A stretch of DNA of 44,202 nucleotides from an uncultured Caryophanales bacterium (GTDB taxonomy: Bacteria; Bacillota_I; Bacilli_A; RFN20; CAG-826), in assembly GCA_947302535.1 (NCBI GenBank), contig CAMYVX010000009.1:1-44202 (forward strand), in the 5' to 3' direction. Positions 1,613 to 35,571 of the stretch are shown in pieces. Position 1 is the stretch's first letter, and every line of letters starts with the position of its first letter. The position numbers and the translations under genes are program-made. Below the pieces are notes generated by a model. That model was not told where the DNA came from. It saw nothing but the letters and a program-made list of their open reading frames with translations, and did not search any database.

Positions 1613-1639
1613 AATTAATTAAATCTCCGTTATTTTTTA

Positions 1640-2860
1640 TTATTTTGCATTTAAATGCTCTAAATATAAGAGTGGTAAGACAGCATACATAGCCGCACAA
1701 ATGACAAGGTCTTCTTTTCTTGTTTTTTCATTTGGTGCATGTGCTTCTTTTTCATCTCCAGGACCAAATCCGATACAAGGAATACCGAATCTACCCATAA
1801 TGGAAACACCATTAGTGGAGAAGGTCCATTTATCAATGACAGGGGCTTTCTTGAATAATTTTTCATAGCCTTCTTTCATGGATTGGCAGTAAATACTTTC
1901 TTCAGGAATAACCCATGTTGGGAAATAGCATTCTGTTGGGTATAAAAGTCCAGTGTAGGATGGTCTTTCATAGCGGTACATACTAACTTCTGCTTTGGCA
2001 GCTTTAACGCCTGGTAGGGCTTCAATTTCTGCAATGGAAGTTTTATCGTTTTCACCCACAGTTAATCTTCTATCAAGAGAAATCCAACATCCATCAGCAA
2101 CTGCACATCTAGATGGGGATTTATGGAAGATTTCACTAATAGTGACTGTACCTTTGCCTAAGAATGGATCATAGGCTAAACCATGTTCGTTGAGTTCTTT
2201 AACTTGTTCAATGATTGGGGCCATTTTGTAAATGGCGTTATCGCCTCTTTCAGGAGCGGAACCGTGACAAGAAATACCACGGACATTAACCATGATTTCC
2301 ATTCTTCCACGATGGCCACGATAAATACGGCAACTAGTTGGTTCAGTAGAGACAACGAATTCTGGTCTAACTTTATCTTCGTTGATGATGTATTGCCAGC
2401 ATAAGCCGTCACAATCTTCTTCTTGGACTGTACCAGTAATGACTAATGTGTAATCACCTTCTAAACCAAGTTCTTTAATGATTTTCGCGGCGTACACCAT
2501 TGAGGCCATACCACCTTCTTGGTCACTAGTACCACGGCCACCGATATGAACATCATCTTCAAAGCCTTTATATGGGTCAAATGTCCAGTTTTTAATTTCA
2601 CCGATGCCAACGGTATCAATGTGGGCGTCCATACCAATTAAATGAGAACCATGTCCTAAATAACCAAGGATATTTCCCATTGGGTCGATAATGACTTTAT
2701 CAAAACCGACTTTTTCCATTTCTTCTTTAATGCGAAGAACGACTTCTCTTTCTTGACATGATTCGCTAGGAATAGCGACCATATCACGAAGGAATTTAGT
2801 CATTTCTGGCTTATATTTATTAGCTAATGCTAATACTTTTCCAAAATCAATCTTTGCCAT
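1640..2860 (-). CDS. ygeY: YgeY-type M20 metallohydrolase
   Basis: A 406-residue M20-family peptidase/deacylase. Metal and catalytic residues are in place: H80 and D82 in DAHIDT, D113 in GTSDQEGG, the Glu pair E147/E148 in TVQEED, and H374 near the C-terminus in EAHAPNE. A lid/dimerisation domain begins near residue 183. This is the ArgE/DapE fold, and the position between ygeW and the PLP enzymes matches YgeY. The family context suggests hydrolysis of an N-carbamoyl or ureido intermediate from the opened purine ring, giving a 2,3-diaminopropionate-like product. Its ATG shares the final A of the upstream PLP gene's stop (TAATG), indicating translational coupling. Family assignment is firm; the substrate is inference. 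Confidence 0.88.
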
Positions 2861-4230
2861 TAGATTTCTTTTCCTCTCATTTCTTTAATCTTGCGATCAT
2901 AATCTTTAATCTTAGCGTATTCTTCTTCCCAGAATTCTGGTTTCTTCATACTGTCAAGATAAGCTTTGGAGTAACCAAATGGGAGCCAGTCTCTTTCTTT
3001 TTGTTCGAAGAGTTTTTCTTTGGCTTCTTTGCCACGAGTATCAAGAATCTTGTTGGTGTCAGCTTCCATAAAGACATCTTCAAACCATCTATCTAAAACG
3101 TGGTCAGTAACTTCGAGTTCTCTTTCTTTGAGATTTTGAATGACGGAATCATAACGGTCGAAGCTATCTGTAGCGATAGTCACAACGTTATCTTGTGGAC
3201 CAAGTTTTAAGTATTTAGCCATCTTAATCGCGCCTAAAATGTTACAAATACCAGAAACACCAAATAAGTCTTTCATAGATTCTGCAAGTTTACGATCAAC
3301 ACCATTTTTCACTAATGTTTCAGTACCTTCATGAATAACTTCTAAGCCTCTCACACAATCATCATCATGAATTTGACAAATGAAGTCTGTAGTTAAGACG
3401 TTATGGATAAGTGTACACATCTTGTCGCCAATACCTTCAATACGGTGTTGTCCACGACCTCCATTAGTGAGGGTTGAACATTCATGTGGTTCAAGAGCAA
3501 CAATTTTACATTCTGGGAATGCTTTTTTCATTTCATCACCAGCGGCTAATGTACCAGCGGAACCTGGAGCACTTGTAAAACAAGCAATTCTTCCGTTACC
3601 AATACCTTTAACAGCTTCAATAGCGCTGTTACCGGTAACAAAGCGGTGGAAACGGTAGTTTGGTAATAGCTCAAATTGAGCTAAAGCATGATTCTTTGGA
3701 TCTTTTTTGAGTTCATAAGTTCTTTCTAAAGTTAAGATAACATCACTTTCACTACCTGGAGTTAAGTCAAGTTTAGCTCCATAACGGGAAATTCTTTGAT
3801 ATCTTTCTTTGGACATATTATCTGGCATGATAACGATCGCGTCATATTTCATTAAATTAGTAATATAACTGACACCGATACCGAAGTTACCAGTTGAAGG
3901 TCCTAAAATTGTGTGTTTACCTGGAATAATTTCTCCATCAACACAACCTTCCATTAATGTGGCGTAAGCTGGGCCCACCTTGTGGGAACCAGATGGGAAG
4001 TATTTACCAAGCATGACGACGATGTTCGCGTCAACACCTGTTAAAGCTTTTGGTAAAACGATTTTTCTAACTTCTCCGTTACCACCATTTTTCCAACCAA
4101 TATTGAATAAGTTGATTGGATCTAATTCATTTTCAGAAAGAGCTTTTTCAGCTTTCTTTCTAAGTTCTGGGTCTTGATGCTCAGGATGAAGCATTTCATC
4201 ATAAGTTGGCCCATAAGGAATTTTAGACAT
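2860..4230 (-). CDS. PLP-dependent fold-type II lyase, cysteine-synthase-like, in the purine operon
   Basis: A 456-residue fold-type II PLP enzyme. SGSHK at 80-84 provides the Schiff-base lysine K84, GPSTGNFG at 110-117 is the substrate-carboxylate loop, and SAPGSAGT at 220-227 is the phosphate-binding loop, as in the cysteine synthase group. A long C-terminal extension (about 370-456) rich in charged residues is not seen in short cysteine synthases. By position it occupies the place of YgeX (2,3-diaminopropionate ammonia-lyase), but the sequence does not read like E. coli YgeX, which is shorter and has a different lysine motif. It probably deaminates an amino-acid end product such as 2,3-diaminopropionate. 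It follows the threonine-synthase-like gene by one base and overlaps ygeY. The reaction is not established from sequence. Confidence 0.75.
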
Positions 4231-4231
4231 A

Positions 4232-5479
4232 TTACTTCCATTCTCCTTTCAAATATCTATCTAAGATTTCTAAGTCTGGTTTCATAACCGAAGGCATTGT
4301 TATGGCCTTTTGGGCATTGAGCGGATCCTTTAATCCATTGCCAGTAACGATAAAGGTAACAGTTTCATCTTTAGAAATAATTCCTTCATCGATGGCTTTA
4401 ATTAATCCGGCTAAGGATGCAACGCCCGCAGGTTCACCGAAGATGCCTTCGCTTTTCCCTAAGAGGGCTTGGGCTTGGAGTATCTTTTCATCGGAGACAC
4501 TAATCCAAACACCATGGCTATCTCTGACCGCATTAATGGCCTTAATAGGGTTACGAGGTATGCCGACAGCAATACTATCCGCAATCGTATTCTCGTCAGC
4601 TTCTTTTAATTCTTGATGCAAACGATCGGCAATCACAAATGGTTCACATCCAGTAGACTGAACAGCAAGAATACGTGGGACCTCGTTTATTAATCCCAAT
4701 TCCTTGAGATCATGAAATCCTTTATAAACACCAGCAACTGTGCAGCCATCTCCTACGGAGACGACAACCCAATCAGTGGGTTTAAAATTAAGTTGTTCCG
4801 CAATTTCTAATGAAACAGTTTTCTTTCCTTCCACTAAGTGAGGATTGATGGCGCAATTGCGGTTGTACCATTTATATTTCTTAATCGCTTCTTTAGAGAA
4901 AGCAAAGGTCGCTTTATAGTCTCCTTGAACTTTCACTAACTTAGCTCCATATAAACAAATTTGTGTAACTTTACCTATTGGTGCTCTTTCCGGAACAAAG
5001 ATGACAGCCTTAAGTCCAGCATGTGCGGCTTGGCAAGCTAAGCTACTAGCAGCATTACCAGTTGAACTTGTGGCGATTGTATCAGCGCCAGCTTCTAAAG
5101 CTTTTAAAACACCAACTCCACTAGCCCTATCTTTACTAGAACCAGATGGGTTTAATCCATCATCTTTAATATATAAATCCTTAATTCCTAGGTATTTTTT
5201 AAGATTTTGGCTATGAACTAAGGGTGTCCAACCAATTTTAAGCATCTTATCGATATTATCAGTTTCAATGGACATTAATGGAGCATATCTCCACATAGAG
5301 TAATCGTGATTGTTTTTAAAATAATCTAAATTCACGACTTCCTTCATGGCCTCATAATCATAGACAACATCAAGAATGCCTTTTTCTCCACAGATTGGAC
5401 AAGTGAAATCAGCTTCAGATTTATCGAAGTAATGTCCACATGTCGTGCAGCGATAACCTTTAAAAAATCTATTCTTCAC
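4232..5479 (-). CDS. Threonine-synthase-like PLP enzyme with zinc ribbon
   Basis: A 415-residue fold-type II PLP enzyme. A zinc ribbon with C11, C14, C27 and C30 begins the protein, SGSSKD supplies the Schiff-base lysine K116, an SSTGN loop follows near 138, and a glycine-rich VGDGCTVAG phosphate loop lies near 240. This is the threonine-synthase layout, but no homoserine dehydrogenase or kinase gene is nearby. It sits between the hydroxylase FAD subunit and another PLP lyase, so a role in the last steps of purine breakdown (an amino-acid ammonia-lyase or beta-replacement step) is more likely than threonine biosynthesis. The start codon is GTG at 5479, chosen because AAAGGAG lies six bases upstream on the minus strand. 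The spacing of one base on each side shows it belongs to the operon. Confidence 0.75.
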   Translation of the reverse strand: MKNRFFKGYRCTTCGHYFDKSEADFTCPICGEKGILDVVYDYEAMKEVVNLDYFKNNHDYSMWRYAPLMSIETDNIDKMLKIGWTPLVHSQNLKKYLGIKDLYIKDDGLNPSGSSKDRASGVGVLKALEAGADTIATSSTGNAASSLACQAAHAGLKAVIFVPERAPIGKVTQICLYGAKLVKVQGDYKATFAFSKEAIKKYKWYNRNCAINPHLVEGKKTVSLEIAEQLNFKPTDWVVVSVGDGCTVAGVYKGFHDLKELGLINEVPRILAVQSTGCEPFVIADRLHQELKEADENTIADSIAVGIPRNPIKAINAVRDSHGVWISVSDEKILQAQALLGKSEGIFGEPAGVASLAGLIKAIDEGIISKDETVTFIVTGNGLKDPLNAQKAITMPSVMKPDLEILDRYLKGEWK

Positions 5480-5480
5480 T

Positions 5481-6326
5481 TTATTCTCCTTTCATCTTTA
5501 AAACGAAATCCTTCACAATGTTCATTTCCACTTTATAACGATATTCCTTCTTAGAACGTTGATCGCTAATAGGCGCAATCGCATCTTTATAAAGTTCCAC
5601 GACTTTGTCTGGATTTAATTCATTTAATTTAAGACCAATAAGTTTTTCTTCTAAGGCTCTATTTCTTACAACAGTAACGGAAACGGAACCAAAGGCTAAA
5701 CGGATGTCTTTAAGAACACCATTTTCAATTTCATAAGCACCAGCAAAGGTACATTTAGAAATAGATTCAGCTTTACGAGAACCAACCTTCTTCCAATAGG
5801 TAGTTAGTTCGTTATGAGTTGGAATAATAACTTCTTTAATGATTTCATCATCTCTCAGAGAGAGTTTTCTTACTCCAATGATTAATTCATTAATTGGAAC
5901 AATGCGGTTACCTTTTAAACTCGCTAATACAACTTCAGCGTCTAGTAAGTATAGACCAACAAGAGAATCTCCCGCTGGAGAAGCGTTACCGATGTTACCA
6001 ACTAAGGTAGCCATATTACGAATGTTAGGCCCAGCAATCTCAATAATGATATCTTTCATCAATTTAGGTGTATCTTCACTCGCTAAAATATCGACATATT
6101 TAGTGGAAGCACCAATATGGACTTTTCCATTTTCGTCTTTTTTAACGTAGTTAAGTTCATTTAAGTTGGCTAAATAGATGACATCTTTATCAAAAGCAGG
6201 AAGTAAGGATGAGGAAACAAATTTTTGCACCATTAAATCAGTTCCTCCCGCCATGATATAACAAGGATGAGAAGCACGATATTCAAGTGCTTCATAAAAT
6301 GTTTGAGGAATGAAATGATTTACCAT
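5481..6326 (-). CDS. Molybdenum hydroxylase FAD-binding subunit, set 1
   Basis: A 281-residue FAD subunit of the xanthine dehydrogenase family (CoxM/XdhB type). The N-terminal FAD loop reads AGGTDLMV at about 26-33, and the second FAD motif is IRNMATLVGNIGNASPAGD near 101-119. It would pass electrons from the iron-sulfur subunit to an acceptor. The gene follows, and overlaps by 7 bases, the 2Fe-2S subunit gene, and has GGGAGG eight bases before its ATG. Together with the two upstream genes it makes a complete heterotrimer. Length is normal for the family. Confidence 0.9.
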   Translation of the reverse strand: MVNHFIPQTFYEALEYRASHPCYIMAGGTDLMVQKFVSSSLLPAFDKDVIYLANLNELNYVKKDENGKVHIGASTKYVDILASEDTPKLMKDIIIEIAGPNIRNMATLVGNIGNASPAGDSLVGLYLLDAEVVLASLKGNRIVPINELIIGVRKLSLRDDEIIKEVIIPTHNELTTYWKKVGSRKAESISKCTFAGAYEIENGVLKDIRLAFGSVSVTVVRNRALEEKLIGLKLNELNPDKVVELYKDAIAPISDQRSKKEYRYKVEMNIVKDFVLKMKGE

Positions 6327-6796
6327 ACTATATTCCTCCCATTTTCGCTTGCCACCATAACGGCTTTAACAATTGCATTATATCCAGTGCAACGGCATAT
6401 ATTGCCAGATAAAGCAAACCTAATCTCTTCTTCGCTTGGGAAAGGATTTTTCTTTAATAATACATAAGTATTTATAATCATTCCCGGAGTGCAGAAGCCA
6501 CATTGGCTGCCACCCATTTCCGCAAAAGCATCAGCGATGATACGATATTGTGGAGTTTTGTTAAACTCATCAATAGTAATAACTTCTTTTCCAGCAACAT
6601 TAGCGACAGGTGTTAAGCAAGAGTTATAAGCTTCTCCATCAACCAAGACCGAGCAAGCTCCACACGCTCCTTCGCCACATCCTTCTTTAACACCTTTAAA
6701 ACCAAGATAATCTCTTAATACATCAAGAAGACGAGTGCTTGGATTAATGTCTAGTTCTATAGGTTGATGATTGACTATAAAATTAATCTTTGCCAT
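6320..6796 (-). CDS. Molybdenum hydroxylase 2Fe-2S subunit, set 1
   Basis: A 158-residue protein with both iron-sulfur clusters of the xanthine dehydrogenase small subunit. The plant-ferredoxin-like cluster uses C40, C45, C48 and C60. The C-terminal four-helix cluster uses C99, C102, C134 and C136 (CGFC ... CRCTGY). It carries electrons from the molybdenum centre to FAD. It overlaps the end of the Mo-subunit gene by 14 bases, and GGAGG precedes the ATG. All eight cysteines are present and the length is typical. Confidence 0.93.
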   Translation of the reverse strand: MAKINFIVNHQPIELDINPSTRLLDVLRDYLGFKGVKEGCGEGACGACSVLVDGEAYNSCLTPVANVAGKEVITIDEFNKTPQYRIIADAFAEMGGSQCGFCTPGMIINTYVLLKKNPFPSEEEIRFALSGNICRCTGYNAIVKAVMVASENGRNIVW

Positions 6797-8882
6797 TTTC
6801 CACTACCTCCATAATATATTCTGGTGTTAAAGGTATCTTATAGATATTCTTCTTAATTGCCATCTCAATAGCGTGCGCTAAAGCAGGAGCGCCACCAACA
6901 AATGTTAGTTCTCCACATCCTTTGGCCCCACTAGCGCCATAGGCAAATAAATTATCAATTAAGGCTGTTTCCATCATTGGTAAATCTTCACAGGTTGGAA
7001 CAATGTAATCTGATAAGGTTTTTTGCATGAACTTACCATCTTTCATTTCCATATTTTCCATATAACCATAACCAATGGCTTGAGCAATACCGCCATCAGC
7101 TTGACCACAAACAATCCTATCGTCAATCGCATGGCCAACATCATAGGTCGACCATACTCCTTCAACTTTAATTTGATAGGTAATTGGGTCATAGGAAACT
7201 TCAATAATATTCACTCCCCAAGCATAGCCAGGATAAGCATCACCTTTCATTAAATCTTCATCCCAGGTGATATAACTTGGACCAACATATGGCTCAATAA
7301 TTTCTTGATAAACGCCTGATTTCCAGATATTTTTCAAATTTTTCGCGGCTTTTTCACATAAGAAGCCAACAATAATAATCGTTCTACTAGCCGCGGTTGG
7401 ACCAGTGGAAAGGGTATGATCAGTATCTGGAGGTTCGTGCGTAACTTGACTTTCAGGAATTCCTAAAGTATCAGAAACAATCTTCTTTAATGTTGTTCTA
7501 TTTCCTTGTCCAAAATCTACTTGAGAAGTATATAAATGGACAATGTCATTTTCGTCTTTTGTTAATTTAACTTGAGCATTAATAATTGTGGATTCTCCAG
7601 AACCTGTAAAGCCACATCCATGGAGGAAGGCCGACATACCAATGCCACGTAAACAACCAGGTTTTTTATATTCTTCATACTTACGTTTGAAGTCTGACAT
7701 CTCAAATGCTTTTTCTACTAGTTCAGGAAGAATAATCTTGTCATGGAATTTTCCATTGACCGCGGTGATATCTCCTTGTTTAGCAAAGTGGGCAATCTTA
7801 AATTCGATTGGATCAACTCCAAGCTTCTTAGCAACATGTTCTATGAACATTTCAAAAGCAAAGATAGTTTGAGGAGAACCAAATCCTCTAAAAGCCGCGC
7901 TTGGCATTGTGTTAGTGATGTAAACATCGCCAGTAATATCTAAGTTTGGAATATTGTAACAATCAACAACAGCAATTAAAGCACGTGATAAGACGACGCC
8001 AGAACAGCCCTTATAAGCTCCTCCGTTTAATCTTACACGAGCTTTAACTCCGACAAGTTTTCCATCTTTAACATAACCAGTGTAGGTAGATTTAGATGGG
8101 TGTCTTTTTGTGGTGTTAATAATATCTTCACTACGATCGAAGATCATCTTAAGTGGTCTTCTAATTTTATGGATAGCAGTGGCAAGTTGGGCCGCCATCA
8201 TGGATGGGTAATGTTCTTTACCACCAAAGGCCCCACCAACAGCGGGTTGAATAACACGGACGTCTTCTTCATTACATCCTAAAGTTCTAACAACAGCTTT
8301 CTTAATATAGAAAGGACATTGCATTGAAGCTTTAATAGTAATCTTTTCTCCATCAAGCCACATAATCATCGCTTGAGTTTCTAAATATGCTTGTTCTTGA
8401 TATCCAGTTTCAAAAGTTTCTTCTAAAACTAAATCAGCATCTTTAATAACGGAGGATAAGTCTCCTTTTTTAAATTCCTTATGAATCTCACTATTGACAT
8501 AGTCAAAAACAGGAGTTTCTTCTTCATAAGTGATTTTAACTTGTTTTTCTAATTCAATGAGTTTGGCTTTATTTTTACCAATTAATAGACCAATAGTTTC
8601 GCCATAATACTTAACATGCCCGTCAGCAAAAACTGGCCAATCAGAAAAGATAATGTTAACAACGTTCTCTTTGACGATATCGGAAGCGTCTACATAATAA
8701 TAATCTTCTGGTAATTCAGGAAGTATAACTTCTTTAATCTTTCCGCATGGAATAGAAGAACGAATTTGTCTTACATAAAGAAAATCTTTTAGCGGTATAT
8801 CAGCGGTAAATAAAGCTTCACCCGCCATCTTTTCTTCATTATCTATTTTAACTGTCGAATTTTTAAATCTTTCCATATCCAT
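6783..8882 (-). CDS. Molybdenum hydroxylase catalytic (Mo-binding) subunit, set 1, xanthine-dehydrogenase-like
   Basis: A 699-residue catalytic subunit of the xanthine dehydrogenase family. GGAFGGKE places E223 where xanthine oxidases have the purine-binding Glu (bovine E802). AFRGFG places R332 at the substrate-orienting Arg (bovine R880). GAKGCGELT places E658 at the catalytic base. All three purine-specific residues are kept, so xanthine or hypoxanthine oxidation, or its reversal from urate, is a reasonable prediction. Selenium-dependent relatives carry labile selenium rather than selenocysteine, so this cannot be read from the gene. The ATG overlaps the stop of the upstream flavoprotein gene (TAATG). 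It is somewhat short, because many relatives reach 750 or more residues, but no motif is missing. Confidence 0.88.
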   Translation of the reverse strand: MDMERFKNSTVKIDNEEKMAGEALFTADIPLKDFLYVRQIRSSIPCGKIKEVILPELPEDYYYVDASDIVKENVVNIIFSDWPVFADGHVKYYGETIGLLIGKNKAKLIELEKQVKITYEEETPVFDYVNSEIHKEFKKGDLSSVIKDADLVLEETFETGYQEQAYLETQAMIMWLDGEKITIKASMQCPFYIKKAVVRTLGCNEEDVRVIQPAVGGAFGGKEHYPSMMAAQLATAIHKIRRPLKMIFDRSEDIINTTKRHPSKSTYTGYVKDGKLVGVKARVRLNGGAYKGCSGVVLSRALIAVVDCYNIPNLDITGDVYITNTMPSAAFRGFGSPQTIFAFEMFIEHVAKKLGVDPIEFKIAHFAKQGDITAVNGKFHDKIILPELVEKAFEMSDFKRKYEEYKKPGCLRGIGMSAFLHGCGFTGSGESTIINAQVKLTKDENDIVHLYTSQVDFGQGNRTTLKKIVSDTLGIPESQVTHEPPDTDHTLSTGPTAASRTIIIVGFLCEKAAKNLKNIWKSGVYQEIIEPYVGPSYITWDEDLMKGDAYPGYAWGVNIIEVSYDPITYQIKVEGVWSTYDVGHAIDDRIVCGQADGGIAQAIGYGYMENMEMKDGKFMQKTLSDYIVPTCEDLPMMETALIDNLFAYGASGAKGCGELTFVGGAPALAHAIEMAIKKNIYKIPLTPEYIMEVVENGKD

Positions 8883-9973
8883 TAAAAGAATTTGATAGCT
8901 TTAACTGGACATTTAGAAGCGCATAATCCGCATCTAAAGCATTTACTTGAATCAAATTCAGGAACCTTGGCTCCGTTTAGTTTAATAGCGAAATAAGGGC
9001 AATTTCTTTCGCACATGCCACAGTGACTGCATTTACTAGCATCCACACTTGGAAGTTCTTTTTCATAAACTGCAGTTTTATCTAATTCAGTATTAATGAC
9101 TTCTTCGATAGAAGAAAAACCGTATTTTTCTAACTCGCCTGGTAAGTCATTAATAATCTTTTTATATAATTCTTTTCCCTTTAACATTGGGGCAGATAAC
9201 ATACCCACAGCAGAAGCACCCGCTAGAAGAAATTCAATAACATCTTTCGCGCTCGCAACACCACCAACACCAATAACCGTTAATGATGGTTCAGCGTGCT
9301 TAATAGTATAGATTGTTGCGAGAGCAACAGGCTTAATAGCAGGACCAGACATCCAGACAAAGCCTTTATCATTATTAGCGAGCATCTTACGGTTAGCCAC
9401 ATCCACCACCATTGATGGTCCTAAAGAGTTGATTGCGACAACGCCATTTGCTCCAGCTTCTTTGATGGTTCTTGCGAATCCTTCTGGGTCAGGCATATGT
9501 GGAGAAATCTTCATGTATAAAGGTTTCTTAGTTAATTTACGGATTGTTGATACTGTCTCTCTTAAAGTATTCAAATCACTACCAACATAATGGGTACTGA
9601 CTTCAAAAGCGTCAGCAAATCTATCAAGTTGAGGAATAAGTTCTTCCATATCTTCTTTGGTATAACCAACAGAAATAATTAATGGAGTATCGCCTTTTTC
9701 TTTGCAATACCTTGGTAAAAATTCATTAATCCATTTTTCTTTCGAATATTCTGTCCAAAGTTCGCAGTTATAAATAGCGTTATTATCTCCGACAATACAT
9801 GGATGGGGGATATGGGCCATTTTCGTGGAAATAGTTTTGGCAACAATCGCTCCGCATCCCGCTTCCTTATTGAGCCAAAGCATCTTTTCATCGTCACCAA
9901 CTAGTGGTCCAGCAGCTGGCATTAATGGATTCTTTAAGACTAATCCATCAAACCTTGTTTCTAATTTATTCAT
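8882..9973 (-). CDS. Dihydroorotate-dehydrogenase-like flavoprotein with two [4Fe-4S] clusters (PreA/YgfK-related)
   Basis: A 363-residue protein made of an FMN TIM barrel (about 1-300), recognisable from NPLMPAAGP near 15, the ISPHMPDP strand, ANGVVAINS and GVGGVASAKDV, and a C-terminal bacterial ferredoxin. The clusters use C315, C318, C321, C325 and C345, C348, C351, C355. It resembles PreA (the dihydropyrimidine dehydrogenase catalytic part). In E. coli and clostridial purine clusters this position is held by YgfK, a much larger protein that adds an FAD/NAD(P)H module. Here that module is absent and no PreT-like partner is in the window, so electrons must come from another donor such as reduced ferredoxin. 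Probable role: reductive dearomatisation of a purine intermediate. Start supported by AAGGAGG seven bases upstream. Confidence 0.82.
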   Translation of the reverse strand: MNKLETRFDGLVLKNPLMPAAGPLVGDDEKMLWLNKEAGCGAIVAKTISTKMAHIPHPCIVGDNNAIYNCELWTEYSKEKWINEFLPRYCKEKGDTPLIISVGYTKEDMEELIPQLDRFADAFEVSTHYVGSDLNTLRETVSTIRKLTKKPLYMKISPHMPDPEGFARTIKEAGANGVVAINSLGPSMVVDVANRKMLANNDKGFVWMSGPAIKPVALATIYTIKHAEPSLTVIGVGGVASAKDVIEFLLAGASAVGMLSAPMLKGKELYKKIINDLPGELEKYGFSSIEEVINTELDKTAVYEKELPSVDASKCSHCGMCERNCPYFAIKLNGAKVPEFDSSKCFRCGLCASKCPVKAIKFF

Positions 9974-9974
9974 G

Positions 9975-11270
9975 TCATTCCTCCTTGAGTGTCTTCCAAA
10001 GTCTATTGGACACTTTTCTTGAATTAATTATTTTTGTATTTAATGATTTATCAGTGAACTGATAATTATGAACTAATTCTTTACCGTTAACGTAAACATC
10101 TTCTGGCAAGAAGTTTGGATACAAACCATAGAAAATATGACCGAAAATATTACTATCATCTATTTGGGTGAATGGAGTGTAGTTCACTAAAAGGAAATCC
10201 GCTAGATAGTTTTCTTCAATTCTACCAATCTTGATATTTAAGATTTTGTTTACGTAATCGTAAGCATTATTAATAAAGCCTAAGACATCACCTAAATTAT
10301 TAGCGAGTGGAGACTTATTTAATAATCTTGTGGAATAGAAAGCGTTTGTGTATTCGTTAGCCATGCAAGAAGATAAGCCATCATTACCAACCATGACTTT
10401 AATGTTATGTTTTTGATATTTCTTAATGTCTGGTAACCCAACTGCGTTATTCATATTGCTGGTTGTATTCACAACCATATAAGCTTTACGTTTACTCACG
10501 ATATCTAATTCTTTATCACTAATATAAACACCATGAACAATAAGGCTATTCTCGTTAATCAGTTGATGTTCATCTAATCTTTCAAGAATACTCTTATGGT
10601 ATTTTTGATAACTGTCATCTTCATCCATATCGCTTTCCGCGACGTGAATATGAATTGGAGTATCACCAAGGACTTCTTTTGCTTCGCTAAGTGTCTTATC
10701 ACTCAATGACATAGAAGCATGGAAGCCAAATAATCCTGCGGTCATATCACTATGATATTTAGCAAAAGTGGCGTTTTCTTTTAAACATTCTTTAACGTTA
10801 TATCGATCGCTAGTTTCAAAACATAAAATAGAACGAATACCAACGTCTTCGTTTAATGCTTTTCTCAGTGATTCTAAAGAACCAATGATGTCTTTACCAG
10901 AAGCATGGTGATCAATAACCGTAGTCACACCATTTTTCAAAAATTCCGCTCCAGCGCATATTCCAGAATAATAAGTAATCTCATTATCAATTTGAGCATC
11001 CATCTTCCACCACATCTGGTCTAAGATTTCTTGGAAGTTTTTAGGATGAAAAGGAAGGATTAATCCACGAGCAAAGATGGAATAGATATGAGCATGGCTA
11101 CAAACAAAGTTAGGGAGCAACAATTTCCCTTGAGCGTCAATAACTTCATAGCCTTCATCTTTATAGTCTTTCATTGAACCAACTTTATGAATCTTCTTAT
11201 CAAAGACCACAAAGCCGTTATCGATGAAGTGGCTATAATCATAAATACGAACGTTGATAATTGCTTTCAT
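9975..11270 (-). CDS. ssnA: SsnA-type amidohydrolase
   Basis: A 431-residue metal-dependent amidohydrolase of the chlorohydrolase/guanine-deaminase group. Metal ligands can be read: H59 and H61 (SHAHI), H209 with E212 (HVAES), H246 (VHGVY) and D297 (GNDGL). SsnA is a constant member of yge/xdh clusters and is assigned to hydrolytic opening or deamination of a reduced purine intermediate. The ATG is two bases after the hyuA stop, and the TGA stop lies one base before the next gene's ATG, with the AAGGAGG of that gene inside the ssnA 3' end. That TGA also shows that the organism does not read TGA as Trp. Guanine deamination is probably done by the separate enzyme at 23531-23989. Confidence 0.88.
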   Translation of the reverse strand: MKAIINVRIYDYSHFIDNGFVVFDKKIHKVGSMKDYKDEGYEVIDAQGKLLLPNFVCSHAHIYSIFARGLILPFHPKNFQEILDQMWWKMDAQIDNEITYYSGICAGAEFLKNGVTTVIDHHASGKDIIGSLESLRKALNEDVGIRSILCFETSDRYNVKECLKENATFAKYHSDMTAGLFGFHASMSLSDKTLSEAKEVLGDTPIHIHVAESDMDEDDSYQKYHKSILERLDEHQLINENSLIVHGVYISDKELDIVSKRKAYMVVNTTSNMNNAVGLPDIKKYQKHNIKVMVGNDGLSSCMANEYTNAFYSTRLLNKSPLANNLGDVLGFINNAYDYVNKILNIKIGRIEENYLADFLLVNYTPFTQIDDSNIFGHIFYGLYPNFLPEDVYVNGKELVHNYQFTDKSLNTKIINSRKVSNRLWKTLKEE

Positions 11271-11271
11271 A

Positions 11272-12579
11272 TTATTCCCTTTCGCAGTTGATTAATTGTC
11301 CTTGTCCACCAAGGAATTTTTCTTCTTTTAAAACAAATCTTCCTCTTACCATCGTGGAAGAGATTTTTTCATTTAATTCAATGCCTTCATAGATGGAATA
11401 ATCACATGTTCCATGAGGCTTGCCAAGCTTATAAGTTGGGCATTCTTCGATAAAAGCTAAGTCGGCGTCTTTACCTAATTCTATTTCGCCTTTTGTGGAA
11501 AATCCTTGTAAAATCGCGACATTTTTACTCATTTTATCGATTATTTTGTCTCCAAATAACTTGTGCATGACAAGGAAAGATGATTCAATTCCTCCAATTC
11601 CAAGAGGGTGTCCCTTAAGTAATGGATGAGACTTTTTATCTTCTTTCATAAAAGAGCAGTGGTCAGTTCCAATGGTATCGACATAATCGATATTCTTGAT
11701 TAAGAGTTTTCTTTCTTCTTCACTTCTTAAAGGAGGCGCAAAGGTAAATAGACAACCATTTTCTCCTTTAAGCACTTCTTTATTAAAGACGAAATATTGT
11801 GGGCAACTTTCAACGAATAAATTCTTGTTAAGAATATCAGAATATTGCTCAACGAATTTTTGTAAAGTATTACCACTACTACAGTGGACCATATATAAAT
11901 AGCCACCTGTCATTCTTGCATATTCAGCAAGTTTCAAGGCTTCGCTGGTTTCAATATCTGAATTCCTTGCTTCTGATATGTCAGTGCACTTCAAAGATTC
12001 ATCATGATTAACCATTTCATCATTCTCAATATGAGCTTCAATCATGATGTTATGTTTTTTTGATAACTTTAATAAAGTTATAATATCTTTATCGTATGTT
12101 CTTCTTCTGGTTTCTGAATAAGTAGTGAAAAGTTTAATTGTTTTCATTCCTAAAGATTTAACTTTAAGAACGAATTCTTCTAAATCACCATCTGGTTCCT
12201 TAATACAACCATGGAAGTGATAATCAACATACGCTCCTTTAGCTAGTGGTAATCTTTCATAAAATTTCTTTTCTTCGGTTCTCGCGTTTCTCGCGGGATC
12301 AAGGAAATCAATAAAAGTAGTTACCCCACCATAGGCTGCAGTTTTAGAACCGGAGATAAAATCATCGACTGAGGTAACGGTTCCACAGTTTAATGAAAAA
12401 TGAACATGGGGATCAATGATGCCAGGAATGATTTTGTATTTTCTAGCATCATAAACCTCTTTAGCGTCCAAGAGTTCGTCTCCGATATAGACAATCTTTT
12501 CATTTTGAATGCCAAGGTTATGTTTAACCCATTTATTTTTAATAAATAATGAAGCGTTTGTGATTAATAAATCTAACAT
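11272..12579 (-). CDS. hyuA: Dihydropyrimidinase/hydantoinase-type cyclic amidohydrolase
   Basis: A 435-residue cyclic amidohydrolase. H58 and H60 (DPHVH), K149 (KLFTTY, equivalent to the carboxylated lysine of D-hydantoinases), H183 (EAHIE), H232 (VHCSSG) and D306 (GTDHCSF) form the complete binuclear metal site. The enzyme would hydrolyse a cyclic ureide ring of an already partly opened purine, giving a ureido acid for YgeY/YgeW. Two other ring substrates (dihydropyrimidine, hydantoin) are possible on sequence alone; the operon favours the purine route. It starts one base after the Mo-subunit stop and ends one base before ssnA. Confidence 0.87.
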   Translation of the reverse strand: MLDLLITNASLFIKNKWVKHNLGIQNEKIVYIGDELLDAKEVYDARKYKIIPGIIDPHVHFSLNCGTVTSVDDFISGSKTAAYGGVTTFIDFLDPARNARTEEKKFYERLPLAKGAYVDYHFHGCIKEPDGDLEEFVLKVKSLGMKTIKLFTTYSETRRRTYDKDIITLLKLSKKHNIMIEAHIENDEMVNHDESLKCTDISEARNSDIETSEALKLAEYARMTGGYLYMVHCSSGNTLQKFVEQYSDILNKNLFVESCPQYFVFNKEVLKGENGCLFTFAPPLRSEEERKLLIKNIDYVDTIGTDHCSFMKEDKKSHPLLKGHPLGIGGIESSFLVMHKLFGDKIIDKMSKNVAILQGFSTKGEIELGKDADLAFIEECPTYKLGKPHGTCDYSIYEGIELNEKISSTMVRGRFVLKEEKFLGGQGQLINCERE

Positions 12580-12580
12580 A

Positions 12581-14899
12581 CTATTTATTCTTTTCCTTAA
12601 CGGCTTTCATAATCTTTTCTGGAGTAATTGGAAGTGAAGTTATTCTTACACCAAACGCATTATAGACGGCGTTAGCGATAACTGCTGGAGGTGTATCAAT
12701 ACCAATCTCACCAACCGATTTTGCTCCAAATGGGCCAGTTTCTTCATAAGAATCCGCGAATTCCACGGTTATTTTATTAACTTCTTTTGTGGTTGGTAAA
12801 TGATAATAAAGGAAACTATCAGAGAGCATCTTGCCATTACTGTTATATAAGACATCTTCATAAGCCGCCATACCAAGACCTTGGACTAAACCACCTTCTA
12901 CTTGTCCTCTGGCAAGCATTGGGTTAATTGTCGTACCGCAATCAACAACCGCGACATATTCAATCACTTTGAATTCATATGTTTCTTTATCAAATTCTAC
13001 TTCAGCATATGCTGACATAAATGGAGGTGGAGAAACATGGCCAAAATATGATTCAGTAACAGAGATTTGTTGCATATCTTTAACATATGTTAAACGATGA
13101 GCTAAATCTTTTAAGGTAATTTCTTTATCTTTGGTGGTGAATTTGACTCCATCAAACTCCACATCATAAGTATGGGCTTCTAACACCTTAGCAGCTTCTT
13201 TAATTAATCTTTCTCTCATCTTAATCGCGGTTTTCCAAGCCGCATTACCAGAGACATAAGTTGTCGAAGAAGCGTACGCTCCAACATCAAATGGAGTTAA
13301 ATCAGTATCAGAAGAATAAATGGTAATCTTATCAACTGTGGTCATTAATTCTTCAGCAACAATTTGGGCCATCACAGTATCACTACCTTGACCAATGTCA
13401 GTTGCACCTACCGTTAACATATAGGTACCATCATCATTTAACTTAATGGTGGCAGCACCCATATCCATGAATGGAATACCACTACCTTGCATAGCAATCG
13501 CCATACCAACAGAACGAACTTTATTGTTGCCCATGTCTTTAACTGGGTACTTCTTATACCAATCAATAAGTTCTGCACCGCGTTTGATACAATAATCCAA
13601 CTTGCAGGATTCCATAATCATCGCGGTACCTTTAGTACCTTCACCCATAATTTCAAAGATTGGAGAAGTTTCTTTTTCTTTCATGGAGTTCTTTAAACGA
13701 AGTTCAATAGGATCCATATGGAGAGCTTCTGCTAATTTATCAATCGCGGTTTCTAAACCATAGTTACCTTGAATAGCGCCGTAGCCACGATAAGCTCCAG
13801 CAGGAACTTTGTTTGTATATAAAACTCGTCCACCAAATCTTACAGCGTCGACTTTGTTATAAAGTGGTAAAACTTTACTGCCCACAATCATAAAGACTGT
13901 TAAAGCATGTTCGCCATAAGCTCCAGTATCACTTAAAGTATGACAATCGATAGCTTTAATTCTTCCATCCTTACTCGCACCAATCTTCATGGAGATTTTC
14001 ATTGGGTGACGAGTATAAGAGGAAGCGAAAACTTCTTGTCTTGTATATTGCATTTTGGCTGGTAAGCCAGTTTTTAACGTCACAAGAGCGACAAAGAATT
14101 CACAGTGGAATTGTTGTTTACCACCAAAACCACCACCAACACGAGGTTTGATGATTCTAATTTTATTTAATGGAAGTCCCAAAGTACGGGACATAATTCT
14201 TCTAACATGGAAAGGAGTTTGTGTTGAAGTATAAATCACTAAACGATTATGTTCATCAAGTCTAGCGTTAGATACATGAGGTTCTAACATACCATGTGCT
14301 TGGGCTTGAGTTTTAACCGTATGTTCGATAACGACATCACATTCTTTTAAAACTTTTTCCACGTTGCCCACTTCCATATCATAGCTGGCGGCAACGTTTT
14401 TCTTTGGATCGAATCCCATTTCAAAAGCTTGTTTAATGCCATCTTCTGGGTGAATAACCGTCTCATTCTCGTATGCTTTTTCAAAATCTAAGACAGGTTT
14501 ATAAACTTCATATTCAACTTCAATGAGTTTAAGTGCTTCTTCTGCGATACGTTCATTAATCGCCGCAACACAGGCTACTTCATCGCCCACAAAACGGACA
14601 TATTCATCTAAGATAAATTTATCCATCGGAGAAGGTGCTGGGTCTCCTTGACCCGCTCTTGACATAGCCACATGAGGAACGTTTTTATATGTTAAAACGC
14701 ATTTCACACCGTTAAGTGCTTCGGCTTTAGAAGTATCAATGTTTTTAATTCTCGCAAAAGCATGAGGGCTTCTAAGCATCTTACAAACTAATGAATTAGG
14801 TTCAGCGTAATCATCAGAATATGACTTACGTCCCATCATTAAAGCTTCGCCATCAAGGGAATGTGTTTTGTTATTAACAACTTTTAAATTCTTACGCAT
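12581..14899 (-). CDS. Molybdenum hydroxylase catalytic (Mo-binding) subunit, set 2
   Basis: A 772-residue catalytic subunit of the xanthine dehydrogenase family and the largest gene of the operon. GGGFGGKQ places Q262 at the position of the purine-binding Glu, AYRGYG keeps Arg R371, and GAKSVGEIG keeps the catalytic Glu E731. The Glu-to-Gln change compared with set 1 suggests a different substrate or orientation, such as another position on the purine ring; several bacterial hydroxylases other than classical xanthine oxidase also carry Gln here. It is preceded directly by its 2Fe-2S subunit (two-base gap) and followed by hyuA. Full length, no broken motif. Confidence 0.88.
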   Translation of the reverse strand: MRKNLKVVNNKTHSLDGEALMMGRKSYSDDYAEPNSLVCKMLRSPHAFARIKNIDTSKAEALNGVKCVLTYKNVPHVAMSRAGQGDPAPSPMDKFILDEYVRFVGDEVACVAAINERIAEEALKLIEVEYEVYKPVLDFEKAYENETVIHPEDGIKQAFEMGFDPKKNVAASYDMEVGNVEKVLKECDVVIEHTVKTQAQAHGMLEPHVSNARLDEHNRLVIYTSTQTPFHVRRIMSRTLGLPLNKIRIIKPRVGGGFGGKQQFHCEFFVALVTLKTGLPAKMQYTRQEVFASSYTRHPMKISMKIGASKDGRIKAIDCHTLSDTGAYGEHALTVFMIVGSKVLPLYNKVDAVRFGGRVLYTNKVPAGAYRGYGAIQGNYGLETAIDKLAEALHMDPIELRLKNSMKEKETSPIFEIMGEGTKGTAMIMESCKLDYCIKRGAELIDWYKKYPVKDMGNNKVRSVGMAIAMQGSGIPFMDMGAATIKLNDDGTYMLTVGATDIGQGSDTVMAQIVAEELMTTVDKITIYSSDTDLTPFDVGAYASSTTYVSGNAAWKTAIKMRERLIKEAAKVLEAHTYDVEFDGVKFTTKDKEITLKDLAHRLTYVKDMQQISVTESYFGHVSPPPFMSAYAEVEFDKETYEFKVIEYVAVVDCGTTINPMLARGQVEGGLVQGLGMAAYEDVLYNSNGKMLSDSFLYYHLPTTKEVNKITVEFADSYEETGPFGAKSVGEIGIDTPPAVIANAVYNAFGVRITSLPITPEKIMKAVKEKNK

Positions 14900-14901
14900 A
14901 A

Positions 14902-15351
14902 TTATTCCCCCTTAAGATAAGCTTTAATTGCTTTTAATTGAGATTGATAACCAGTGCAGCGGCAAAGGTTACCCACGATATATTCTTTAATCTCTTCGTC
15001 GGTAGCATTTTTATTATGCTTTTTTAAAGAATAGACAGTTAATGCGAAACCAACGTTGCAGTATCCGCATTGATCTGCCCCTTCTTCAGCAAAACAATGA
15101 GATAGTTTTTTAGCTTCATCTTGAATACCATCCACTGTGGTGATATGTTTACCTTCAGCCTTAGCGCTCAATATAGAGCAAGATAAAACTGGTTTATCAT
15201 CAAGTAAGACGGTACAAGCTCCACAAGCGGATTCATTACAACCTTCACGAACAGAAAAAAATCCGTTTCTTCTTAAGGTATCCGCTAGATATTCATCTGG
15301 AGTAACATCGAATGTTCTTAAAACTCCATTAACGTAACAAGTTAAAGTCAT
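14902..15351 (-). CDS. Molybdenum hydroxylase 2Fe-2S subunit, set 2
   Basis: A 149-residue small subunit with all eight cluster cysteines: C38, C43, C46 and C58 for the ferredoxin-like cluster, and C95, C98, C130 and C132 for the helical-domain cluster (CGYC ... CRCTGY). It is related to, but clearly different from, the set 1 protein, so the two sets are not a recent duplication. It lies between the FAD subunit and Mo subunit genes with two-base gaps, giving an intact heterotrimer. Confidence 0.93.
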   Translation of the reverse strand: MTLTCYVNGVLRTFDVTPDEYLADTLRRNGFFSVREGCNESACGACTVLLDDKPVLSCSILSAKAEGKHITTVDGIQDEAKKLSHCFAEEGADQCGYCNVGFALTVYSLKKHNKNATDEEIKEYIVGNLCRCTGYQSQLKAIKAYLKGE

Positions 15352-15353
15352 AA

Positions 15354-16142
15354 TTAGAGGACCTCCTTAAGGCCACGACGGATGTAGACCTTGGCTAAAT
15401 CAATACGATATTCTTTAGAAATATTTGTGCTATCAGAGAACATAAGTTCTTCGCAAGCAATTTCGCTAGCCTTATTAATAGCTTCATCATCAACTGGATT
15501 CTTATCAAGATAATCCATGGCTTTTAAGCATAAAGCAGCGGTCATTGGTCGAGAACCAAGAGCGATATAGAGTTTATTATTTCTTTTAGAAATAGAAATG
15601 TTTAGTAATGGGAAATCAAGTGCGGTGGCTTTGACTTTTTTGAAATAGCCTTTTGCATTATCTTTCTTGATAGAAATATGAGTAAGAATTCCATCATATT
15701 TTCCCTTGTAGGAAAGATAATCGACTAAAGACATTTTTGCTTCAGGATAGAAATGAAGAGCAACATCTAAAACAATTAAACCAGCAATAACATCAGAGAA
15801 TGGATATCTTCCGAAAATAGATCCGCCGATTGTGGCCATGTTACGGAATTGCAAACCCATAACTTCACGAACCGCAAAAGCGGTCATACCACTATTGAGG
15901 CTTTGGATAACAGGAGAATGTTCAAACTCTCTAAGTGTAACCATTGCTCCCACGACAACCTCGTCTTTCTTATCTTCAATCTTGTCTAATCCAAGTTTTG
16001 ATAAGTCAATAAGTGTGTCATACTCTTGAGCGGTTTTCTTCATCCATAATCCACCAGCAATAATTGCGTTCTTATTGCTTTCATGGAGACGAGAAAAAGC
16101 ATCTTCTAATGACGATGCATAGTAATAGTTTTTTACTCGCAT
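15354..16142 (-). CDS. Molybdenum hydroxylase FAD-binding subunit, set 2
   Basis: A 262-residue FAD subunit of the xanthine dehydrogenase family. The second FAD motif is intact (QFRNMATIGGSIFGRYPFSD near 98-117). The first loop reads AGGLWMKK at about 29-36, where AGGTDLL is usual, so the conserved Thr and Asp are missing. The protein may still bind FAD but with altered contacts; set 1 keeps the normal sequence. GGAGG lies about ten bases before the ATG, inside the 3-base gap and the mocA tail. Confidence 0.85.
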   Translation of the reverse strand: MRVKNYYYASSLEDAFSRLHESNKNAIIAGGLWMKKTAQEYDTLIDLSKLGLDKIEDKKDEVVVGAMVTLREFEHSPVIQSLNSGMTAFAVREVMGLQFRNMATIGGSIFGRYPFSDVIAGLIVLDVALHFYPEAKMSLVDYLSYKGKYDGILTHISIKKDNAKGYFKKVKATALDFPLLNISISKRNNKLYIALGSRPMTAALCLKAMDYLDKNPVDDEAINKASEIACEELMFSDSTNISKEYRIDLAKVYIRRGLKEVL

Positions 16143-16145
16143 AAA

Positions 16146-16724
16146 TTAATATCCTCCGAAATGCTTGTCTAGATTTTCAAAATCTCTAGGCGTGTCTAAA
16201 TCGATTAAAATATGTTTATCGTTCACAACTATTATTTCATAATCTCGTTCATTACGAAACAATTTTAGATTGTAGTCGATATTTTTCTTCAATAAAATAT
16301 CAGCTTCTGAAGCACTGACGAATAATGGATGACCATTTTTTCCTTGATAATTGACTAATCTAATTCCTTTATTCCCATCAAGGATTTTTCTATATGTCTC
16401 TGCTTGTACAAATGGACAATCTCCAGGAATTATTAATAAACTAGCTTGTGGGTATAATTCTTTACTTTTTTTCACTCCAGATAGAACGCTAGAAAACATT
16501 CCTTTTACATAATCAGGATTATAAACAATAGTTACTTCACCGCTTTGGAATTCTTCTTTTATCTCATTGTGGAAATGTCCAGTAACAACAAAAATATGAT
16601 CCACAAAAGGTCTCATCGAATTATAAACGTGACGAATAAGAGGAAGACCGTTGATAGAAAAAAGCATCTTATTACTTCCAAGACGAGAAGAAAAACCACC
16701 CGCTAAAATAATTCCGTTAACCAT
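16146..16724 (-). CDS. mocA: Molybdopterin cytidylyltransferase-like NTP transferase (MocA/YgfJ family)
   Basis: A 192-residue nucleotidyltransferase of the MobA-like family. The signature LAGGFSSRLGSNK near 6-18 binds the nucleotide, IPGDCPF near 93-99 carries the metal-binding Asp, and GKNGHP follows near 119. It most likely activates molybdopterin for the hydroxylases encoded directly downstream (MCD-type cofactor). E. coli has the related ygfJ in the same kind of cluster. The ATG at 16724 is preferred over an in-frame TTG at 16742 because the protein family starts at the GIILAGG strand and because a TAAAAT -10 element lies between the two. No Shine-Dalgarno is present; the A of the ATG falls where transcription should start, so the mRNA appears leaderless. 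First gene of the operon. Confidence 0.85.
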   Translation of the reverse strand: MVNGIILAGGFSSRLGSNKMLFSINGLPLIRHVYNSMRPFVDHIFVVTGHFHNEIKEEFQSGEVTIVYNPDYVKGMFSSVLSGVKKSKELYPQASLLIIPGDCPFVQAETYRKILDGNKGIRLVNYQGKNGHPLFVSASEADILLKKNIDYNLKLFRNERDYEIIVVNDKHILIDLDTPRDFENLDKHFGGY

Positions 16725-16731
16725 TGAGAAT

Positions 16732-16760
16732 ATTTTAAACAATATTGAATTTTAATTCAA
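16732..16760 (-). promoter_or_regulatory. Predicted promoter of the purine operon
   Basis: On the minus strand TTGAAT (16755-16760) and TAAAAT (16732-16737) are separated by exactly 17 bases. The predicted start point, seven bases further, is at or next to the mocA ATG (16724). The -35 element lies within the palindrome at 16744-16761. Confidence 0.6.
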
Positions 16761-16761
16761 T
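16744..16761. promoter_or_regulatory. 18-bp palindrome, candidate operator of the purine operon
   Basis: ATTGAATT-TT-AATTCAAT is a perfect inverted repeat with 8-bp arms. It covers the -35 hexamer and the start of the spacer of the mocA promoter, where a bound protein would block RNA polymerase. The divergent HTH protein at 16883 is one candidate binder, but HTH proteins of that type often bind other sites; this is inference. Confidence 0.5.
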
Positions 16762-16814
16762 GAAGAGAAGGGAAAACTTTACTAGCGAAACAAACGCAAC
16801 CAATATTTGCGCAT

Positions 16815-16882: not shown

Positions 16883-17488
16883 ATGGAAATGAAACTTGCA
16901 AACCGCTTAGCTGAATTAAGAAAACAACATGGTTATACTCAAGAAGACCTTGCTGATAAGCTCAATATCTCTAGACAGGCTATCAGTAAATGGGAAACTG
17001 GTGAGTCTGCACCAGACACAAATAATCTAATTGCCTTAGCAGAGTTATACGGAATTACTTTAGATGAATTAATTAAAGGTAATAATGAATACGTAGATAC
17101 AAAACCAGAAGATGTTGTGGACAAAAAACATCATTACGAACATAAGAAACTTCCAAAAGCCATTGTCATCATCAATTCAGTTGAAGCTTCTCTTATGCTT
17201 CTTACTCTTATCGCTTATATTGTCTTAGGAGCCACTCTTGGATTATGGGGAAAAGCATGGTGTTTATTCTTCGTTCCAGAGATATTATCATCTTTTGCTA
17301 GAGCGATAGAAAAACGTCGTTTTTGCGAATTTAGTATCGTTTTTGCTGTACTTTTCACATATTTCTTCATTTGTTGTTGGCTTTGTAATTTCTCAATGTT
17401 CCATCCTCTTTGGGTCTTATTCTTAATCATTCCAATCTACTACATTGCGTTTGGAAACATTGATAAAGCAATTCATTCAGAACAATAA
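16883..17488 (+). CDS. XRE-family HTH regulator with membrane-embedded C-terminal domain
   Basis: A 201-residue protein. Residues 5-65 form a Cro/C1-type HTH (LAELRKQHGYTQEDLADKLN, then SRQAISKWETGES). After a charged linker (70-95), residues about 98-190 contain three to four hydrophobic segments, so DNA binding is tethered to the membrane. Such proteins are common in Firmicutes and rarely have known signals. It is transcribed away from the purine operon across a 158-base divergent region and precedes carbamate kinase, so it may control either or both. GAAGGAAA precedes the ATG; an alternative ATG lies two codons downstream. Confidence 0.85.
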   Translation: MEMKLANRLAELRKQHGYTQEDLADKLNISRQAISKWETGESAPDTNNLIALAELYGITLDELIKGNNEYVDTKPEDVVDKKHHYEHKKLPKAIVIINSVEASLMLLTLIAYIVLGATLGLWGKAWCLFFVPEILSSFARAIEKRRFCEFSIVFAVLFTYFFICCWLCNFSMFHPLWVLFLIIPIYYIAFGNIDKAIHSEQ

Positions 17489-29948: not shown

Positions 29949-31127
29949 TTACCTCCTTGAAGCTAATGTACAGATTTCATACATTACTTCTTTATCCATT
30001 GGTTTTATATGGTGAGGAATGATTCTCTCACCATTATTAGAAATCTTATTAACAATTTTTTCAATATCTATATCAGGAATATTAAGATCTTCAAATGTTA
30101 AGGGCATATCGAATAATCTAAAGAATTCTTTAAGTCGATTAATTCCTTCAAGAGCGTTCTTCATCTTATCTTCTATAAATGAATCAAAGACCACTTTTGC
30201 TAATTGATCGAATTTATCAACATCATATTTAACATAATAAGTTGCCCACGCTGGGAATAATACAGCAAGGCCTTCTCCATGAGCCACACTTGGATATAAT
30301 CCTGAGAGTGCATGTTCCATTTGATGAACGGGCATAAAGAACTTTTTGCCTATGCTTGTTAAGCCGTTATGGGAGAAACTTGACGCTAGCATTATTGAAG
30401 CTCTTGCTTGGTAATTTTCTGGCTCTTTTACTAAAATTCCGCCAGCTTTTACCACGTTTTTTAATAATCCAAGAGCAATATCGTCCGCAAATTCTAATTC
30501 ATCAGATGGTTGGAAATATCTCTCTAAGGTATGCATCATAATATCGACGACGCCATATCCTGTTTGTGCTTTACTAACACTATAAGTTAGCTCTGGATTT
30601 TCAATTGCAAACAATGGTCTAACTAGTTCACTATTAAAGCCGGCTTTTGTTCCAGTTAGATCATCTTGAATAACACAAGAGGTAGACATTTCGCTTCCTG
30701 CGGCGGAGATAGTTAGTATTACACCAATAGACAAACATTTGCTTGGAGAGCATTTATGCAAATTGAAATCAAAGGGATCTCCATCGTAGTAATAACCAAC
30801 ACCTAAAGACTTAGCGGTATCAATGACACTACCACCACCAATAGCGAGTAGTAATTCAGGACGATAACCTTTAATAGTCTTAAGAGCGGGCTTCACAAAG
30901 TCAATCGTAGGATTAGCTCTTACTCCTTCGATTAAAATATATTCAATATTAGATTCATCTAATAAAGATGTTACACGATCTAGTAGACCGCTTTTTCTTA
31001 CCGAACCCTTACCAATGATAACGGCAATACGTTTAAAGCCGTGCTCATTTAAAATAGAGGCAATTTCATTTTCTTTATCTTTGCCAAAATAGATTTTTGT
31101 TTTTAATTGAAAATCAAAATTAATCAT
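29949..31127 (-). CDS. Iron-containing alcohol dehydrogenase
   Basis: A 392-residue group III alcohol dehydrogenase (butanol-dehydrogenase-like). GGGSVID at 97-103 binds NAD(P)H. Metal ligands appear as D195 and H199 (DIMMH), the HQMEH region (268-272) and H283 (AHGEG). It probably reduces an aldehyde during fermentation. It overlaps the end of the upstream tetR by 8 bases, and AGAGG precedes the ATG, so the two are co-transcribed and the regulator probably controls it. The natural substrate cannot be read. Confidence 0.9.
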   Translation of the reverse strand: MINFDFQLKTKIYFGKDKENEIASILNEHGFKRIAVIIGKGSVRKSGLLDRVTSLLDESNIEYILIEGVRANPTIDFVKPALKTIKGYRPELLLAIGGGSVIDTAKSLGVGYYYDGDPFDFNLHKCSPSKCLSIGVILTISAAGSEMSTSCVIQDDLTGTKAGFNSELVRPLFAIENPELTYSVSKAQTGYGVVDIMMHTLERYFQPSDELEFADDIALGLLKNVVKAGGILVKEPENYQARASIMLASSFSHNGLTSIGKKFFMPVHQMEHALSGLYPSVAHGEGLAVLFPAWATYYVKYDVDKFDQLAKVVFDSFIEDKMKNALEGINRLKEFFRLFDMPLTFEDLNIPDIDIEKIVNKISNNGERIIPHHIKPMDKEVMYEICTLASRR

Positions 31128-31677
31128 TTTTACCTCTAATCTTTATGAACTTAGTGATAGATCTTTTAATGTTACTTTCATCTTCGTAACACAAAGCATT
31201 CATCATGCCTTCAATTGTTTTGTTTTTATAGTTTGATAAATAGTAAACAAGAGAATTAGAAAACGCCATCGCGTAATAGCGGGCAATAGATTTCCTATCG
31301 TTCGCAGTAATCTTTTTACTTTCTAAATCATTACTAATGATATGTAAGCAGAATTTATAACAGTTGTTATATATGAACTCTTGGAATAAATCTTTACAAG
31401 CAGAATCTAATGTTGCTAACACAAAGGCTTTATTATTTGCGTAGTAGTTATAAATACATTTCACCATGTCTTTAATTGTTAATGCATTTTCAATTCCTTC
31501 CATTTTCTCGTTTAAATAAACTAAAGTGAGAAGGTCATAAATATCATGAAAGTGATAATAAAATGTTTGACGATTAACACGACATTTTTTCGCTAACAAA
31601 GTAACAGAAATGTCATCAAGTGGCACTTCCGCCATTAAAGTTTTTAGTGTGGCGGCAAAATAGTATTCTGTCTTCAT
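31120..31677 (-). CDS. TetR/AcrR-family regulator
   Basis: A 185-residue TetR-type protein. The N-terminal HTH is at about 18-50 (DDISVTLLAKKCRVNRQTFYYHF), and the C-terminal half is all-helical, ligand-sensing, with no recognisable subfamily mark. Its ATG overlaps the psuG stop (TAATG) and its 3' end overlaps the alcohol dehydrogenase gene, so it lies inside an operon; the ADH is the simplest target. N-terminal wording resembles the DhaS-like group of regulators. Confidence 0.85.
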   Translation of the reverse strand: MKTEYYFAATLKTLMAEVPLDDISVTLLAKKCRVNRQTFYYHFHDIYDLLTLVYLNEKMEGIENALTIKDMVKCIYNYYANNKAFVLATLDSACKDLFQEFIYNNCYKFCLHIISNDLESKKITANDRKSIARYYAMAFSNSLVYYLSNYKNKTIEGMMNALCYEDESNIKRSITKFIKIRGKND

Positions 31678-35562: not shown

Positions 35563-35571
35563 AAAACAAAA

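Follow-up and report, generated by a model that had tools for sequence, protein, structure and literature searches.

The window, by which we mean the whole 44,202 nt stretch of DNA analysed here, carries on its minus strand 14 genes that run from 16724 to 599, with every gap between neighbours at most 27 nt. ORFs, protein families, gaps and a scan for Shine–Dalgarno (SD) sites bore out the layout of a 14-gene operon of xanthine-dehydrogenase or purine type (599–16724), as proposed in a preliminary description of this DNA, and an SD-like match of at least four letters was detected before 12 of the 13 genes downstream of the first. The encoded proteins include molybdenum hydroxylase subunits in two sets, a pair of amidohydrolases, PLP enzymes, YgeY, whose score exceeded its cut-off, a ferredoxin protein of the dihydroorotate-dehydrogenase-like kind and a member of the carbamoyltransferase family. 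The set is reminiscent of the reductive uric-acid degradation cluster of anaerobes outlined in PMC12507026, with which it shares Mo-hydroxylases and a hydrolase of the YgeY type. The first gene (16146–16724, minus strand) encodes a protein of 192 residues that belongs to the MocA/MobA type of NTP transferases (PF12804, E 2.6e-31). Its score against the NCBIfam MocA model TIGR03310 was 115.5 bits, under the cut-off of 186.45, and the name mocA is therefore likely rather than certified. Two homologues of mocA (L011 in genome G003 and L042 in G192) each contained one in-frame TGA inside the match. Divergently from mocA lies an ORF on the plus strand (16883–17488) with a profile match to the XRE-family HTH_3 regulators and a hydrophobic C-terminal part.

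On the minus strand, the −35 hexamer TTGAAT (16760–16755), a 17 nt spacer and the −10 hexamer TAAAAT (16737–16732) are followed by ATTCTCA and the ATG of mocA (16724–16722). This promoter matched the consensus at 9 of 12 positions in a promoter scan, and its spacer falls within the 16–18 nt that separate the hexamers of sigma-A/sigma-70 promoters. The gap of 7 nt between the −10 hexamer and the ATG lies within the range used here for leaderless genes (5–9 nt), and no SD match of at least four letters was present in the 20 nt preceding the ATG. The preliminary description had reported both this promoter, with the same spacing, and the missing SD, and both observations were reproduced. It had also placed the start of transcription at the A of the ATG. 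When the usual distance from −10 to +1 is applied, the predicted start is either that A, at 16724, or the A at 16725, giving a leader of 0–1 nt; the leaderless part of the claim is supported by the sister genus, the outgroups and the genome-wide class described below. The ATG at 16724 is itself likely to be the right start, because the nucleotide-binding motif of MocA/MobA proteins follows directly (MVNGIILAGG) and the starts of relatives coincide with it. A riboswitch or other RNA element was rejected, the sole Rfam match in the window being a bacterial small SRP RNA (RF00169, 60.3 bits) at 35559–35655 on the minus strand.

To follow this arrangement among orthologues, mocA was located in 45 of 224 genomes of the family, and 40 starts were readable after exclusion of two genes cut by contig ends (G142 and G084) and three loci in which the script found no motif (L172, L174 and L175). 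Within the sister genus, labelled g22, the close spacing was kept, with a −10 hexamer 6–10 nt before the ATG in 15 of 16 orthologues (nine at 6, three at 7, two at 9 and one at 10), and an SD was absent in all 16. Where the gap is 6 nt, the predicted start falls on the A of the ATG. The one g22 exception (G194) had no close −10, and its ATG stands directly after the upstream stop codon. Across the other genera of the family (23 starts, the window's own excluded), the best-scoring −10 lay at a gap of 10 nt or less in one case, a count in which weaker candidates at gaps 9 and 11 in L046 (same contig as L205) were not ranked best; 15 of the 23 starts had an SD. Genus g13 and some members of g6 showed SD-less mocA starts with a −10 at a gap of 12–16 nt. 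Outgroup loci were also collected. A scan of genome contigs with MocA alone as query gave no matches; when repeated with xdhA, the scan retrieved 75 loci, 58 of them with mocA, with four loci near an edge and several duplicating family genomes. The outgroup set consisted of 22 loci absent from the family list and labelled Acholeplasmataceae, Izimaplasma, Mollicutes, Clostridia and others, with taxonomy taken as labelled. None of the 22 had a −10 at a gap of 3–10 nt, and 18 had an SD. In a MocA tree of 39 rows, the protein of the window was sister to g22 with support of 94/89, which is good yet under the starred level of the tool. Inheritance within the clade formed by the window's genus and g22 appears to be the best explanation of the leaderless arrangement.

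These data also bear on whether mocA could be transcribed from a promoter farther upstream, with a long SD-less leader and an accidental −10 close to the ATG. There is room for such a promoter in the 158 nt that separate the ATG from the divergent gene, and the SD-less starts of g13 and g6 with a more distant −10 would be in keeping with it. However, the TTGAAT-N17-TAAAAT pair was the only minus-strand promoter-like site between 16600 and 16950, and the close spacing persists in 15 of 16 g22 species, whose intergenic DNA is as short as 48 nt (G191). An upstream promoter is consequently regarded as very unlikely.

Genes with the same features were sought in a sample of the genome comprising 404 kb in 19 stretches with 311 ORFs. 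Of the 77 genes that lacked an SD and had 30 nt or more of upstream sequence, 21 had a promoter at a gap of 5–9 nt, compared with a mean of 5.9 in eight control windows at gaps of 10–49 nt (Poisson P 1e-6) and a mean of 4.2 in 500 shuffles, of which the maximum was 11. Reliance was placed on these two controls because the Fisher contrast (21 of 77 vs 0 of 90) is biased, an SD occupying the space of a close −10. Choice of the first ATG as a source of the excess was rejected, as the TAA in TATAAT would favour gaps of 5 and 8 while the peaks were at 6, 7 and 9. Of six relatives sampled on a smaller scale, three (G005, G017 and G013) had a similar excess; in G182 and G145 it was weak, and G018 lacked it. 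When ten genes of the class were compared with Pfam, six matched ordinary families (a deaminase, a DinB-type polymerase, a helicase, an aminotransferase and similar), one matched a DUF and three had no match. Leaderless starts are therefore not special to the mocA operon. The leaderless reading of mocA is well supported in silico, and conservation in g22, absence from the outgroups and the existence of a genome-wide class make it more than a matter of lucky spacing.

The whole −35 hexamer lies inside an inverted repeat, ATTGAATT-TT-AATTCAAT (16744–16761), found by a repeat search, with 8 nt arms at 16744–16751 and 16754–16761. The preliminary description had called this a perfect 18-bp palindrome; the 8-2-8 repeat is real and does cover the −35, but the central TT is not self-complementary and 16 of the 18 positions are symmetric. 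After dinucleotide shuffling, repeats with 8 nt arms and a loop of at most 2 nt arose in 0.96 % of 60 nt upstream regions and in 2.2 % of 158 nt intergenic regions. Comparable repeats were present in 13 of 147 real upstream regions of the genome sample, against about 1 % for the shuffled mocA upstream region. Such repeats are thus fairly common, and the repeat taken alone is modest evidence. The check suggested in the preliminary description, a search for the same palindrome elsewhere in the genome, found no second exact copy and six copies with two mismatches, all within ORFs. A palindrome regulon was rejected on these counts, and an operator without a second exact copy would be peculiar to this promoter.

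A palindrome over the −35 was observed in three of the 16 g22 species (G191, G188 and G186), where TGTTGAT-WT-ATCAACA holds a −35 of TTGATW, 17 nt from TATAAT. Between these species 15–16 of the 16 palindrome letters are kept, while the DNA just upstream is unlike. The half-sites are TTGA-N4-TCAA in the three g22 species and TTGA-N8-TCAA in the window, i.e. 4 bp closer in g22, and because this spacing differs the same protein is not implied for both. The site of the window, judged by sequence and spacing, is therefore not kept in orthologous promoters. The g22 palindrome (TGTTGAT-NN-ATCAACA) was likewise rejected as the mark of a regulon: seven sites without mismatch were found in 10 genomes, three being the mocA promoters themselves and four lying in ORFs. 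Three of these four ORFs are presumably GlmS-like genes. Other inverted repeats were seen at the −10 of relatives. Six g22 species carry, over the −10 and not the −35, an inverted repeat made up of A and T only, TAATTATA-N4-TATAATTA, and L012 has a similar one (seven loci: L012, L030, L034, L036, L038, L040 and L044); the two g13 species have another inverted repeat over the −10.

Whether the repeat of the window is an operator or a chance feature of AT-rich promoter DNA next to a leaderless promoter turns on these comparisons. A chance origin, at about 1–2 % per region and with 13 of 147 upstream regions having a repeat of this kind, agrees with the uniqueness of the palindrome in the genome and with the lack of a palindrome over the −35 in 13 of the 16 g22 species. 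Against this stands the retention of 15–16 of 16 letters in three g22 species whose adjacent upstream DNA differs, and chance is considered rather unlikely. The claim that the palindrome is a control site is consequently retained in part: the low chance expectation speaks for it, but the restriction to three of 16 g22 species, the different spacing and the single exact copy do not. Moderate confidence attaches to the palindrome as a candidate operator, and control of the operon through it is plausible.

The preliminary description had named the HTH protein encoded at 16883 as the protein to be tried as binder of the palindrome. This proposal was not supported, since the motif common to the upstream regions of HTH relatives was GCAACC-N5-TTGC and not the mocA palindrome. 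The motif occurred in 18 of 21 distinct upstream regions and is present in the window as GCAACCAATATTTGC (16796–16810, plus strand). As the exact 15-mer GCAANTATTGGTTGC it was found in 26 of 224 genomes; among 20 loci with the exact 15-mer, an XRE gene lay 15–81 nt downstream in 14, a 15th was identified by coordinates (L169, G183) and no XRE gene followed in the remaining five. GCAACC-N5-TTGC was often followed by AAnTAGA..GGTGG..GCAACC and was situated mostly 49–81 nt upstream of XRE regulators throughout the family (L133–L151, L152–L171). A literature search with the letters of this element gave no match. The gene organization of g22 also argues against the HTH protein as binder, as this HTH gene does not adjoin mocA in the three g22 loci that have the palindrome, in which the gene upstream of mocA is carbamate kinase (in G191 with two membrane-protein genes between). 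The element at 16796–16810 is probably the autoregulatory operator of the HTH protein and is a better candidate for that role than the mocA palindrome.

Control of both genes by the XRE/HTH protein from 16796–16810, with the −35 palindrome irrelevant or secondary, would account for the conservation of the element ahead of XRE genes and for the divergent HTH–mocA arrangement that recurs in G012 and G107, both of g13. Against it stand the g22 mocA genes, which keep the leaderless promoter with no copy of this HTH gene nearby, and the position of the element, some 35 nt farther upstream than the mocA −35, and we judge it unlikely. A TetR-type regulator (TetR_C_8) encoded in the window at 31120–31677 on the minus strand is another possible palindrome binder. 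Sites resembling the catabolite-control cre consensus, with at most one mismatch, were found in eight of 73 regions upstream of mocA, against a shuffled expectation of 0.2 (L037, L179, L217, L220, L233, L236, L254 and L013); seven of the eight are distinct, L179 and L217 appearing to be one genome, and the 73 regions include duplicates.

A sigma-A promoter, a leaderless mocA mRNA and a −35 repeat that is most likely a repressor operator together form a joint explanation that we consider probable on the sequence evidence. A promoter of the sigma-A type, TTGAAT-N17-TAAAAT, would transcribe the operon, the mRNA would begin at the ATG of mocA or one nucleotide earlier, and ribosomes would start at this ATG with no SD; of the 13 genes that follow, 12 have SD-like sites. 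The start of mocA would belong to the genome-wide leaderless class. A repressor dimer, probably not the neighbouring HTH protein, would most likely bind the −35 repeat as its dedicated operator and block RNA polymerase. Since a start at 16724–16725 leaves the repeat untranscribed, the repeat would function at the DNA level rather than through a hairpin in the RNA. Leaderless repressor genes with a start at the AUG and an operator at the promoter include lambda cI, transcribed from PRM, and tetR of Tn1721. The mocA promoter, with its predicted start and candidate operator, resembles these in both respects; they encode regulators, whereas the gene here heads a metabolic operon.

Leaderless (TA-led) genes, described from many bacteria by Zheng et al. 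(2011; PMC3160421), have no SD and carry a TATAAT-like box some 12 nt ahead of the start codon. By the figures given in that survey, leaderless genes occur in 56 of 209 Firmicutes genomes at a mean of 4.2 % and are concentrated in Lactobacillales and Mycoplasma, with an average of 18.3 % in five Mycoplasma genomes. The position of the box and the missing SD are the same at mocA; the difference lies in the group, an uncultured family of gut Bacilli, and in following conservation at one orthologous operon promoter. Nine apparently leaderless transcripts are reported for Mycoplasma gallisepticum, with peptides for eight and with three of the proteins encoded by the first ORFs of polycistrons (PMC4245973), and some leaderless transcripts for M. 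florum (PMC7745072). The M. gallisepticum transcripts were mapped experimentally, while the mocA start is predicted from sequence. A literature search for leaderless transcripts in metagenome-assembled genomes from the gut returned one paper, which concerns ribosome biogenesis. Leaderless operons as such are already known, and what is added here is a series of lineages compared at one and the same promoter.

This case is well sampled, with 40 promoters and 39 MocA sequences, and allows SD-led and leaderless starts of one gene to be compared. Judging by the genome sample (21 of 77), roughly one in four SD-less genes with enough upstream sequence would be leaderless in these uncultured gut Bacilli, and their starts may be misplaced by gene-calling programs that depend on SD sites. 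For the neighbouring XRE regulator, a concrete operator candidate is now available. Tentatively, the promoters may be arranged in a series from SD-led starts (outgroups and the majority of the other genera) by way of short leaders that lack an SD (g13 and some members of g6) to leaderless starts in the window's genus and g22. If so, the cofactor-maturation gene at the head of the operon would initiate translation in a different way from the other genes, most of them SD-led, and would respond to stress in its own manner.
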